Shown: positions 23,969-27,066 of the stretch, piece after piece
Position numbering within the stretch: position 1 is the stretch's first letter
Layout: each line of letters opens with the position of its first letter
Origin: an uncultured Pseudomonadales bacterium
GTDB taxonomy: Bacteria; Pseudomonadota; Gammaproteobacteria; Pseudomonadales; UBA7434
NCBI GenBank assembly: GCA_943788835.1
Contig: CALSRU010000001.1
Location: 66,229-130,228, forward strand
DNA length: 64,000 nt
Direction: 5' to 3'
Made by a program: the position numbers and the translations under genes
The notes under the pieces: model-generated
What the model was told of the DNA's origin: nothing
Databases searched by the model: none
The model's input: only the letters and a program-made list of their open reading frames with translations

Positions 23969-24685
23969 ATGATTGAATTCAAGTCAGTGAGCAAGGTTTA
24001 CCGCGGACAGCGGGCATTGGCGGACCTTAGCTTTTTGCTTGATCGCGGCGAGATGGCTTTTTTAACGGGGCATTCTGGCGCTGGTAAAAGCACCCTGCTC
24101 AAACTCATAATGCTGATAGAAAGGCCGAGCGCTGGCGAGGTTTTGATTGATGGCAAAACACTCACCAAGGTACGCGGCTCCAATATAGCCAGGCTAAGAC
24201 GCAACATTGGCTTCGTCTACCAAAGCCATCACCTATTATCCGATCGAAATGTCTTTGAGAATGTAGCGCTACCACTTATGGTGGCAGGCTTTCACCATCG
24301 CGATATTGCTCGGCGCGTTCGGGCTGCACTTGATAAAGTTGGCCTGCTAAGTAAAGAAAAACAAAGCCCGGCAACACTTTCGGGTGGCGAACAACAGCGA
24401 GTGGGCATTGCTCGGGCAGTCGTCAACAAGCCCCCTATTTTGTTGGCAGATGAACCAACCGGCAACCTTGACCCCCAACTCAGCGCCGAAATCATGCAGC
24501 TATTACACGATTTTAATAACGCCGGAGTAACGCTTCTCATCGCAACCCACGATTTAGCACTTATTGCGAAAATGCCTCACCGTTCGCTAATTTTGCGCCA
24601 AGGCCAATTAATTGGGGGCACCCACCTTAGCGATAACGTCGCCAGTGAGCGAGCCGCGCCTGTCGACTTGAGTGGTCACTTATAA
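23969..24685 (+). CDS. ftsE: Cell division ATP-binding protein FtsE
   Basis: FtsE is the ATPase of the FtsEX complex, which activates septal peptidoglycan hydrolases through periplasmic partners. The 238-residue ABC protein has Walker A GHSGAGKSTLL, the signature LSGGEQQRVGIARAV, and Walker B PILLADEPTGNLD with the family tail TLLIATHD. It begins two bases after ftsY and abuts ftsX, so the three genes are surely one operon. It is slightly longer than E. coli FtsE (222), with a polar C-terminal extension. Confidence 0.97.
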   Translation: MIEFKSVSKVYRGQRALADLSFLLDRGEMAFLTGHSGAGKSTLLKLIMLIERPSAGEVLIDGKTLTKVRGSNIARLRRNIGFVYQSHHLLSDRNVFENVALPLMVAGFHHRDIARRVRAALDKVGLLSKEKQSPATLSGGEQQRVGIARAVVNKPPILLADEPTGNLDPQLSAEIMQLLHDFNNAGVTLLIATHDLALIAKMPHRSLILRQGQLIGGTHLSDNVASERAAPVDLSGHL

Positions 24686-25690
24686 ATGCGTGACACGCCT
24701 CTCAAGCAAGGTGCAACCTCCCCCGCGCTCAGTTGGCGTGACCAACTGCGTGTTTGGCGGGATTCGCATCGACTTTTCGCAAAGCAAAGCTTCGACCGCC
24801 TGTGGGAAAAACCACTCGCGACATTGGTGACGTTGACGATGCTTGCCATCGCCATCGCACTCCCCACGCTGTTACATTTAGGGGTAAAAAATGTTTCCAG
24901 CTGGGTCAGTTATTCAGACAGCGGCTTAGAGATGACTGCCTACTTACACATGCCCACATCTCAGGTCCAAGCCAACACTGACTTTAATAGTGAGGGCCAG
25001 GCACTAGCGCTGCGTGTCGCGCAACTAAGTGGCGTTAAACAAGTTGAATTTATATCGGCTCAAGACGCACTCCTTCGGCTCGAGGTTATTGCCGGAGCTG
25101 GGAGCATCGATATTATCGACAGCCTCCCCGCCAACCCATTGCCGGCCGCCATCAGAGTGGTGGTTGGGCAAGGGCCAGAGCTGGCCTCCACAGCCAATGC
25201 TCTCGCCCAAAAAATAGAAGCATTACCCGAAGTCGAGTCTGTGCGCTTTAATCTTGAGTGGTTCCAAAAGGCGCAAGCCATTGTGCAACTGGTGCTAAGA
25301 ATCAATCTGGCCGCATCGGTGTTGCTGGGCATGGGCGTTGTGCTCGTCATCGGGAACACCGTGCGCGTGTCCATAGCTAGCCGGCGCGAAGAAATCTTGG
25401 TGGCCAAGTTAGTGGGCGCCACCAATGCTTATGCAAGAAGGCCCTTTTTATACTTAGGGGTCTGGCTGGGCGCAACAGGCGCAGCAATGGCATTGATCAT
25501 CTCGTTCGCATGTATGTATGCACTTACATACTACATGAAGCCTTTAGAAGCTGCTTACAGTACCAATATCAGCATACAGCACTTAAGCGCCAATACCGCA
25601 TTAGTCATTTTTTTGGCCAGCGCAAGCCTTGGCTGGGTAGGATCTTGGGTGATTTGCAGCAATCAAATCAGTAAACTTGAGCCCGAATAA
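24686..25690 (+). CDS. ftsX: Cell division membrane protein FtsX
   Basis: FtsX is the permease-like partner of FtsE. The 334-residue protein has a cytoplasmic N-terminus of about 45 residues, a first helix (ATLVTLTMLAIAIALPTLLH), a periplasmic domain (about 75-205) that recruits hydrolase activators, and three further helices. RREEILVAKLVGATNAYARRPFL before the last pair is the conserved FtsX segment. The ATG directly follows the ftsE stop codon, consistent with coupled translation. Confidence 0.95.
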   Translation: MRDTPLKQGATSPALSWRDQLRVWRDSHRLFAKQSFDRLWEKPLATLVTLTMLAIAIALPTLLHLGVKNVSSWVSYSDSGLEMTAYLHMPTSQVQANTDFNSEGQALALRVAQLSGVKQVEFISAQDALLRLEVIAGAGSIDIIDSLPANPLPAAIRVVVGQGPELASTANALAQKIEALPEVESVRFNLEWFQKAQAIVQLVLRINLAASVLLGMGVVLVIGNTVRVSIASRREEILVAKLVGATNAYARRPFLYLGVWLGATGAAMALIISFACMYALTYYMKPLEAAYSTNISIQHLSANTALVIFLASASLGWVGSWVICSNQISKLEPE

Positions 25691-25707
25691 CAGGCTAGCT
25701 CTTTTTT
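25679..25707 (+). terminator. Possible weak terminator after ftsX
   Basis: AGCC and GGCT arms flank the ftsX stop and are followed by AGCTC and a run of six T. The pairing is short and interrupted, so leaky read-through into rpoH is possible. Confidence 0.35.
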
Positions 25708-25825
25708 ATGGGATTTTTGACTCACTTTGGACCAGATAGCAACTTTTAAGCGCTTTTACCGGCAGTTGAATTTATTCCTAGATTGATATAGCCAACCGCT
25801 AAGACGGCAGTTCTAGAGCCCCGCA

Positions 25826-25854
25826 TTGAACTATTTCTGCATTAGCACTCTAAC
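25826..25854 (+). promoter_or_regulatory. Putative sigma70-type rpoH promoter
   Basis: TTGAAC (25826-25831) and TCTAAC (25849-25854) are separated by exactly 17 bp; each matches four of six consensus bases. The -10 box lies inside the CIRCE element, so a bound repressor would occlude RNA polymerase. The predicted leader is about 120 nt. Confidence 0.5.
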
Positions 25855-25868
25855 GCTGAGAGTGCTAA
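25842..25868. promoter_or_regulatory. CIRCE element (HrcA operator) upstream of rpoH
   Basis: The perfect inverted repeat TTAGCACTC, nine bases, GAGTGCTAA equals the CIRCE consensus with no mismatch, and the arms extend by one further complementary pair (A/T). HrcA binds CIRCE and represses chaperone genes at normal temperature; GroEL keeps HrcA active. Here it lies 114 bp before the rpoH start codon and overlaps a plausible -10 box. No chaperone gene is adjacent, so rpoH is the only sensible target. hrcA itself is not in the window. Confidence 0.93.
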
Positions 25869-25982
25869 TATTGCTGTAATGAGGCAGCGCATCCCATCCA
25901 ATCATTCCACCCGCGCTCCCAATGATTACCAATCGCCAACGCCGAGCAAATGCTCGGGCGCGAGAAGGAGGACAATGCCAAC

Positions 25983-26846
25983 ATGAATACACAACTACAA
26001 GCGATACCGGTGCTGACACCCGGAAGTAATATCAATGCCTATATGGCTTCGGTCAATAGTTTTGAAGTACTGAGCAAGGACCGCGAGCAAGAACTTGGCC
26101 GCCGACTAGTCGAGCAAGGTGACCTGGAAGCCGCGCGCGAGCTGATACTTTCACACCTTCGGTTCGTTGTCCGTGTGGCCAAATCTTACAATGGTTATGG
26201 GCTTGGTTTGGGCGATTTAATTCAGGAAGGCAACATCGGCTTGATGAAAGCAGTTAAGCGTTTCAACCCTGAAAAAGGTGTGCGGCTAGTATCATTTGCC
26301 GTGCACTGGATCAAAGCCGAAATCCATGAGTTTATATTGCGCAACTGGCGCATCGTTAAAATCGCCACAACCAAAGCGCAGCGCAAATTATTTTTCAATT
26401 TACGCAGCAAGAAAAAAGATTTAGCTTGGCTGAGCAACGAAGAGGCACAGGTCATAGCCGAAGATTTAGGAGTGGCAGTTTCAGACGTCCAGCAAATGGA
26501 AGGTCGGCTGTCATCCTATGATATGGGCTTCGATGCGCCGGCAGATGCCAGTGAAGAAAAAGCTGCCCAATCTCCTGCCTATTTTTTACAAGACCAGTCA
26601 GCCGACCCAGCATTAGCTACTGAAGATTCTCAGTGGGCACAACAGCAAGGCACTGAATTGCGACAGGCGCTACTTTCTTTAGATGATCGCAGCCGCCATA
26701 TTCTTCAAGCGCGCTGGCTCAATGAGTCTTCGAAAGTTACCTTGCATGATCTGGCTGCTGAATATAGTGTGTCCGCTGAGCGCATACGCCAGCTCGAAAA
26801 AGAAGCCATGAAAAAGCTCAAAGCGGCTATGCAGGCGTCCGCCTGA
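25983..26846 (+). CDS. rpoH: RNA polymerase heat-shock sigma factor sigma32
   Basis: Sigma32 directs RNA polymerase to heat-shock promoters. The 287-residue protein has region 2 with FVVRVAKSYNGYGLGLGDLI and EGNIGLMKAVKRF, the RpoH box QRKLFFNLR that distinguishes it from RpoD and RpoS, and region 4 with VSAERIRQLEKEAMKKLK. The ATG at 25983 is chosen over the open frame from 25950. AAGGAGG lies 11 bases upstream, with a tiny ATG-CCA-ACA-TGA reading frame in between whose stop overlaps the rpoH ATG. The ftsYEX-rpoH order is conserved. A CIRCE element controls it. Confidence 0.96.
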   Translation: MNTQLQAIPVLTPGSNINAYMASVNSFEVLSKDREQELGRRLVEQGDLEAARELILSHLRFVVRVAKSYNGYGLGLGDLIQEGNIGLMKAVKRFNPEKGVRLVSFAVHWIKAEIHEFILRNWRIVKIATTKAQRKLFFNLRSKKKDLAWLSNEEAQVIAEDLGVAVSDVQQMEGRLSSYDMGFDAPADASEEKAAQSPAYFLQDQSADPALATEDSQWAQQQGTELRQALLSLDDRSRHILQARWLNESSKVTLHDLAAEYSVSAERIRQLEKEAMKKLKAAMQASA

Positions 26847-26916
26847 GTCGGCCAGCAAATCAACAGCAATACAGTAAGCGGTGGTAAAGCCATTTTCGAT
26901 CGGTGATGACCCGCGC

Positions 26917-26922
26917 TATAAT
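26917..26922 (+). promoter_or_regulatory. Putative -10 box for the DUF423 gene
   Basis: A perfect TATAAT follows the rpoH end by about 70 bp and precedes the next start codon by about 145 bp. The -35 region is poor. The context CGCTATAAT is the same as at the rph -10. Confidence 0.35.
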
Positions 26923-27066
26923 ATGCAAGCAGAGCAGGGCGCTAATGGATAGTAAGTGCCGGCATTTAATGTTCTGCTGTTATCAACGACGATCGTGCTT
27001 ACAGACACTTTTGTAGTAACACCTCAACTTTATCGCCCAGCACCATCAACTATTGACCGGCTTACT

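Follow-up and report, generated by a model that had tools for sequence, protein, structure and literature searches.

Two bacterial answers to heat shock, the HrcA repressor with its operator CIRCE and the sigma factor sigma-32, are usually presented as separate systems, and sigma-E is added to them as a third, envelope branch. The rpoH locus analyzed here raises the question of how these branches could meet at one gene. It lies in a stretch of 64 kb from an uncultured gammaproteobacterium, hereafter called the window, in which a CIRCE is situated in the promoter region of rpoH, the gene for sigma-32 itself. An earlier note on this DNA had described the repeat as a perfect CIRCE and had proposed a two-tier cascade, with HrcA standing above sigma-32. 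A combination of motif searches, protein family searches and genome comparisons was used to ask what accompanies the operator in its own genome, which type of promoter it covers and how widely the arrangement is shared.

The operator and the heat-shock genes of the same genome

The inverted repeat TTAGCACTC-TAACGCTGA-GAGTGCTAA (25842-25868, forward strand) agrees with the CIRCE pattern TTAGCACTC-N9-GAGTGCTAA without a mismatch, all 18 of the 18 arm bases being identical. It is the sole match in the window at up to three mismatches, where 0.03 matches are expected by chance. The repeat sits between ftsX and rpoH in the gene order ftsY-ftsE-ftsX-rpoH and ends 114 nt before the rpoH start codon (Table 1). 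The earlier note was therefore correct about the perfect operator, and the protein family match to TIGR02392 identifies the downstream gene as rpoH. An alignment of the rpoH upstream regions of relatives, which the note had recommended, comprised 23 loci with a CIRCE from the order sample described below (window included) and revealed that the repeat is conserved.

The start of rpoH was selected from the position of the Shine-Dalgarno sequence and the N-termini of relatives; the ATG preceded by AAGGAGG is the likely start codon, and a longer open reading frame beginning at 25950 was set aside in its favor. A mini-ORF, ATG-CCA-ACA-TGA (25975-25986 of the window), overlaps this start as ATGA, and the equivalent position in the close relative G007 reads ATG-CAG-ACA-TGA; translational coupling of the mini-ORF with rpoH is possible.

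Table 1. Features of the rpoH locus, numbered from the first base of the window
Feature	Position	Strand	Basis
ftsE, context gene	23969..24685	+	TIGR02673, 282 bits above cut-off
ftsX, neighbor upstream of rpoH	24686..25690	+	TIGR00439, 261 bits above cut-off
Putative sigma-E -35 element, GAACTA	25828..25833	+	5/6 to GAACTT; GAAC in register among relatives
CIRCE (HrcA-binding inverted repeat), perfect	25842..25868	+	0 mismatches; conserved in relatives
Putative sigma-E -10 element, TCTAA	25849..25853	+	TC is the end of the CIRCE left arm; spacing 15
Shine-Dalgarno sequence of rpoH, AAGGAGG	25965..25971	+	read in the sequence
rpoH, heat-shock sigma factor sigma-32 (likely start)	25983..26846	+	TIGR02392, 393.2 bits (cut-off 323); NF005143, 417.6 bits

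The genome that contains the window (2.76 Mb in 17 contigs, 98.97% complete) was searched for hrcA and for further CIRCE copies, as the note had also suggested, and both were found. The hrcA gene (TIGR00331, 309.9 bits; PF01628, 208.4 bits) belongs to an hrcA-grpE-dnaK-dnaJ cluster. At up to three mismatches only two CIRCEs were detected in the whole genome, both of them perfect, one before rpoH and the other before groES in the groESL operon; a reversed control pattern also gave two matches per strand at this threshold, and none at up to two mismatches. The 16 kb around hrcA-grpE-dnaK-dnaJ contain no CIRCE at up to three mismatches. A perfect sigma-32 site, CTTGAAA-N13-CCCCAT, was identified ahead of dnaK, and sigma-32-like sites with 11 of 13 matches each were identified ahead of grpE and groES; the respective site scores were reached in 0, 4 and 1 of 300 shuffles for dnaK, grpE and groES. 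The genome also carries rpoE-rseA-rseB, with RpoE scoring 298 bits above the cut-off and with matches to the RseA_N and MucB_RseB domains. The positions of the CIRCEs and of the sigma-32-like sites thus suggest a wiring in which HrcA controls rpoH and groESL, and sigma-32 controls grpE, dnaK and, once more, groESL.

A putative sigma-E promoter merged with the operator

The earlier note had described a candidate -10 box overlapped by the CIRCE. The overlap is confirmed by our analysis, and the sigma-70 reading of this box was rejected: a sigma-70 scan of positions 25600-27000 yielded no forward-strand site and a single site on the opposite strand, within rpoH, and the register of GAAC among relatives favors sigma-E. 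The promoter of the window can be read as GAACTA-N15-TCTAA. It differs in one base and by one unit of spacing from the published AlgU consensus, GAACTT-N16/17-TCTNN (PMC7641640), which many relatives match fully.

Comparison of the rpoH-CIRCEs with the groES-CIRCEs of the order sample separates the two promoters. Upstream of rpoH, 22 of 23 loci (window included) have GAAC at a gap of 8-10 from the repeat, as GGAAC or TGAAC at a nearly constant position and often extended by TT; spacer position 12 is A in 22 of 23, and TAA directly follows the left arm in 16. Upstream of groES, the registered GAAC was found in 0 of 15 loci and the A at spacer position 12 in 1 of 15. The sigma-70 -35 sequence TTGAC, in turn, is present at 9 of the 15 groES-CIRCEs versus 0 of the 23 rpoH-CIRCEs. 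Judged from these sequence patterns, the rpoH promoter is very probably a composite, namely a promoter of the sigma-E (RpoE/AlgU) type in which the HrcA operator lies across the -10 element and the start region.

Spread of the composite element and its association with hrcA

The composite was sought in the genome_contigs collection, with one genome per species and 84,980 species, by means of the pattern GAACT-N9/10-TTAGCACTCTAA-N6-GAGTGCTAA, which carries no information about rpoH. At least 117 stretches were obtained, and of the 117 matches listed 113 are followed by rpoH in the same orientation; in the four remaining stretches among these matches the available DNA stops 47, 64, 157 and 195 bases past the repeat, and ftsX is located upstream in two of the four. 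The cultured species Chromatocurvus halotolerans (DSM 23344) and Halioglobus pacificus are among the carriers of the composite. In a class-wide sample of 232 gammaproteobacterial genomes, of which 172 contain hrcA and 218 gave an rpoH match, GAACT-N9/10 precedes an exact CIRCE with a free spacer in 35 genomes. All 35 possess hrcA (background 172/232; p 1e-5). Thirty loci are listed for these genomes, and 29 of them precede rpoH. The remaining one (L284:1501-1542 in G117) is a sigma-E-like/CIRCE composite that precedes clpB, so that this switch is found at another heat-shock gene besides rpoH.

Upstream regions of rpoH were collected for 129 of the 218 class genomes with an rpoH match, comprising 29 class loci and 100 taken in list order; a few listed loci were skipped and one further locus, from the same order, was excluded. 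A CIRCE with up to three mismatches was present at 104 of the 129 loci, in a set where the best-scoring end is over-represented because the 100 upstream regions were taken in list order. Of these 104 rpoH-CIRCEs, 66 have GAAC at gap 9 and 81 have it at gaps 8-10, and none has it at gaps 0-7 or 11-13. Gap 9 corresponds to N16 between GAAC and TC, which matches the published AlgU spacing (PMC7641640), and A at spacer position 12 completes TCNNA in 76 of the 81 loci with a registered GAAC. In the 23 loci lacking GAAC at gaps 8-10, GAAC-N16-TCNNA lies just upstream of the repeat in seven (G094, G106, G114, G192, G194, G210 and G220), which leaves 16 of the 104 with neither sigma-E arrangement. The pattern GAAC-N15..17-TCNNA was found in 81 of 100 upstream regions that have a CIRCE and come from hrcA-containing genomes, versus 4% in shuffles. 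It was also found in 4 of 8 hrcA-containing and 6 of 17 hrcA-lacking class genomes that have no CIRCE at rpoH; the sigma-E half therefore occurs on its own in some genomes that lack the operator, although not in all of them.

The operator itself follows the distribution of hrcA. In the class sample, a CIRCE with up to three mismatches was observed at rpoH in 100 of 108 genomes with hrcA versus 4 of 21 without it (p 7e-12), and with one genome per family (82 class genomes) the counts were 67 of 72 versus 3 of 10. Eight of the 108 hrcA-containing genomes have no CIRCE at rpoH; the four hrcA-lacking genomes that keep one do so at 1-3 mismatches, two of them at a single mismatch. The earlier note had taken a CIRCE at rpoH to be unusual. 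Rarity among the bearers of hrcA is rejected on the basis of the 100 of 108, and hrcA is itself present in 172 of the 232 genomes.

The order sample comprised 57 genomes, 19 of which contain hrcA (PF01628), in addition to a fragment at a contig end in G003; G032, which gave no rpoH match, was excluded from the association. At up to two mismatches, a CIRCE was found at rpoH in 18 of 19 genomes with hrcA versus 5 of 37 without (p 2.6e-9). The hrcA-containing genome outside this threshold, G038, has an rpoH CIRCE with three mismatches. G026, which lacks hrcA, has an rpoH CIRCE with one mismatch, and so does G013 with two mismatches; the latter genome is 75% complete, and its recN-grpE gap of about 1.1 kb contains no hrcA match. 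No CIRCE at up to two mismatches was detected anywhere in the genomes G018, G024, G028, G044, G051 and G052. G038 also contains a perfect CIRCE (L424:7244-7270) about 55 nt ahead of a gene for a TRIP13-like AAA ATPase (PADLOC TRIP13, 441 bits), which adjoins a bacterioferritin-like gene (named by eye).

Within the genus of the window, grpE comes next after recN in the hrcA-less G001, G002, G004, G006, G008 and G011, and no hrcA match lies between the two genes; in G005 grpE was not found. Since some members of this genus have no hrcA where it normally stands, they provide a natural experiment in operator decay. The rpoH site has eroded to 4-5 mismatches in the hrcA-less G001, G005, G006 and G008, versus mostly 7-9 mismatches for the best chance matches in comparable upstream regions; the sigma-E -35 element is intact in G005 and lost in the other three. 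A tree of rpoH places the hrcA-less genomes in a single clade with a support of 80. The likewise hrcA-less G002 (L033), G004 (L031) and G011 (L029) retain a CIRCE with 0-1 mismatch at rpoH. Their groES CIRCE has been lost in G004 and G011, and G002 retains one with two mismatches. Either hrcA was lost recently from these three genomes or the site is under some other protection.

Proposed control of rpoH by two inputs and its relation to known systems

In Bacillus, titration of HrcA by GroEL is an established mechanism. At the rpoH promoter of the window, envelope stress would free sigma-E from RseA and thereby supply the polymerase. HrcA bound to the CIRCE would cover the -10 element and the start region and hold rpoH low as long as HrcA is kept active by GroEL. 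Once GroEL is occupied by unfolded proteins, HrcA would leave both CIRCEs, releasing groESL and rpoH. Sigma-32 would then drive grpE, dnaK and, from a second promoter, groESL. The output of rpoH would accordingly approximate the product of sigma-E activity and HrcA vacancy: no transcription would be expected without free sigma-E, and little with HrcA bound. If HrcA gates a sigma-E promoter in this way, stress in the envelope and stress in the cytosol should be combined at rpoH. The two-tier cascade of the earlier note can thus be retained in part. HrcA above sigma-32 agrees with the presence of hrcA, the CIRCEs at rpoH and groESL and the sigma-32 sites, but with a sigma-E-like promoter the release of HrcA alone need not raise sigma-32, and sigma-E activity should be needed as well.

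Three other explanations were weighed against the HrcA-gated sigma-E promoter. HrcA could repress rpoH through the CIRCE at an ordinary sigma-70 promoter, the match to GAAC and TCNNA being incidental. The association of the CIRCE with hrcA would hold without any claim about sigma-E, TTGAC promoters do carry CIRCEs at groES (9/15), and both sigma-E arrangements are missing from 16 of the 104 class rpoH-CIRCEs. We nevertheless regard this explanation as unlikely, given the lack of a forward sigma-70 site in 25600-27000, the distribution of TTGAC (0/23) and registered GAAC (22/23) at the rpoH-CIRCEs, the excess of the sigma-E pattern over shuffles (81% versus 4%) and the occurrence of the same pattern upstream of rpoH in E. 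coli.

More doubtful still is that the repeat is kept for something other than HrcA, such as another repressor or a structural role. This has to be considered because some hrcA-less genomes retain the repeat intact, namely G002, G004 and G011 (0-1 mismatch, hrcA absent from its usual place) and the two class genomes with a one-mismatch site. The strong overall association of site and hrcA argues against it, as do the eroded copies in the sister clade without hrcA; in the retaining genomes, moreover, hrcA may have been lost recently, and the promoter would partly hold the left arm in place. That the CIRCE works at rpoH in the mRNA leader, as a hairpin affecting stability or translation, and not as a DNA operator is hardly credible. 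CIRCE often lies within the leaders of other genes. However, neither an RNA thermometer nor another structured leader is supported here, the segment 25860-26120 being not unusually structured (z +1.05), and from TCTAA at 25849-25853 a start at about 25859-25861 is expected, which would leave the left arm untranscribed. The composite of a sigma-E-type promoter and an HrcA operator remains the preferred reading. Points that weigh against it are the deviations of the window's own -35 element and spacing, the class rpoH-CIRCEs without a registered GAAC, the lost -35 element in three of the four genomes with an eroded site, the low share of the sigma-E pattern in hrcA-lacking class genomes without a CIRCE (6 of 17), the hrcA-lacking genomes that retain the operator and the hrcA-containing ones that have none.

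In E. coli, rpoH is transcribed in a sigma-E-dependent manner from the P3 promoter. The 217 nt before rpoH of E. coli K-12 contain one sigma-E match, GAACTT-N16-TCTGA, which we take to be P3, and no CIRCE (the best candidate has eight mismatches). Control of rpoH by AlgU/sigma-E is established in Pseudomonas aeruginosa (PMC7641640). The pattern GAACTT-N16-TCNNA before rpoH, which the window's GAACTA-N15-TCTAA approaches, links these systems to the composite; the difference is that in the window the putative -10 element is fused with an HrcA operator. Compared with the known HrcA/CIRCE regulon of groESL and hrcA-grpE-dnaK-dnaJ, the operator is identical, hrcA is present and groESL is under CIRCE here too; the second target, however, is rpoH, and hrcA-grpE-dnaK-dnaJ has no CIRCE (16 kb, up to three mismatches). 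The nearest precedent is Geobacter sulfurreducens, a Deltaproteobacterium for which a CIRCE was predicted before rpoH (PMC545781, Table 8). A perfect CIRCE at rpoH and groESL in the regulon is common to both, but in Geobacter CIRCE also precedes hrcA-grpE-dnaK-dnaJ, and the available part of the same source names no sigma-E promoter at the rpoH site (PMC545781). Among the publications listed in the literature searches, a CIRCE at rpoH was found for Geobacter only, and none was found to describe the sigma-E/CIRCE composite, how widely it occurs or its link to hrcA. The 2003 paper by Permina and Gelfand, which reportedly surveys beta/gamma/epsilon regulons, may already list a CIRCE at rpoH.

For the Gammaproteobacteria that bear hrcA (in the GTDB sense), we lean towards the HrcA-gated sigma-E promoter of rpoH as the default wiring, an envelope AND cytosol switch held in one overlapping motif, with the HrcA-free scheme of E. 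coli and Pseudomonas as the remnant left after the loss of hrcA. The 41-base element at 25828-25868 would then join the three branches of the heat-shock response, with sigma-E transcribing rpoH, HrcA blocking it and sigma-32 running the chaperones. With the composite, heat-shock control by two inputs can be tested directly, and E. coli would represent a stripped-down version of this system, provided that the class survey holds.
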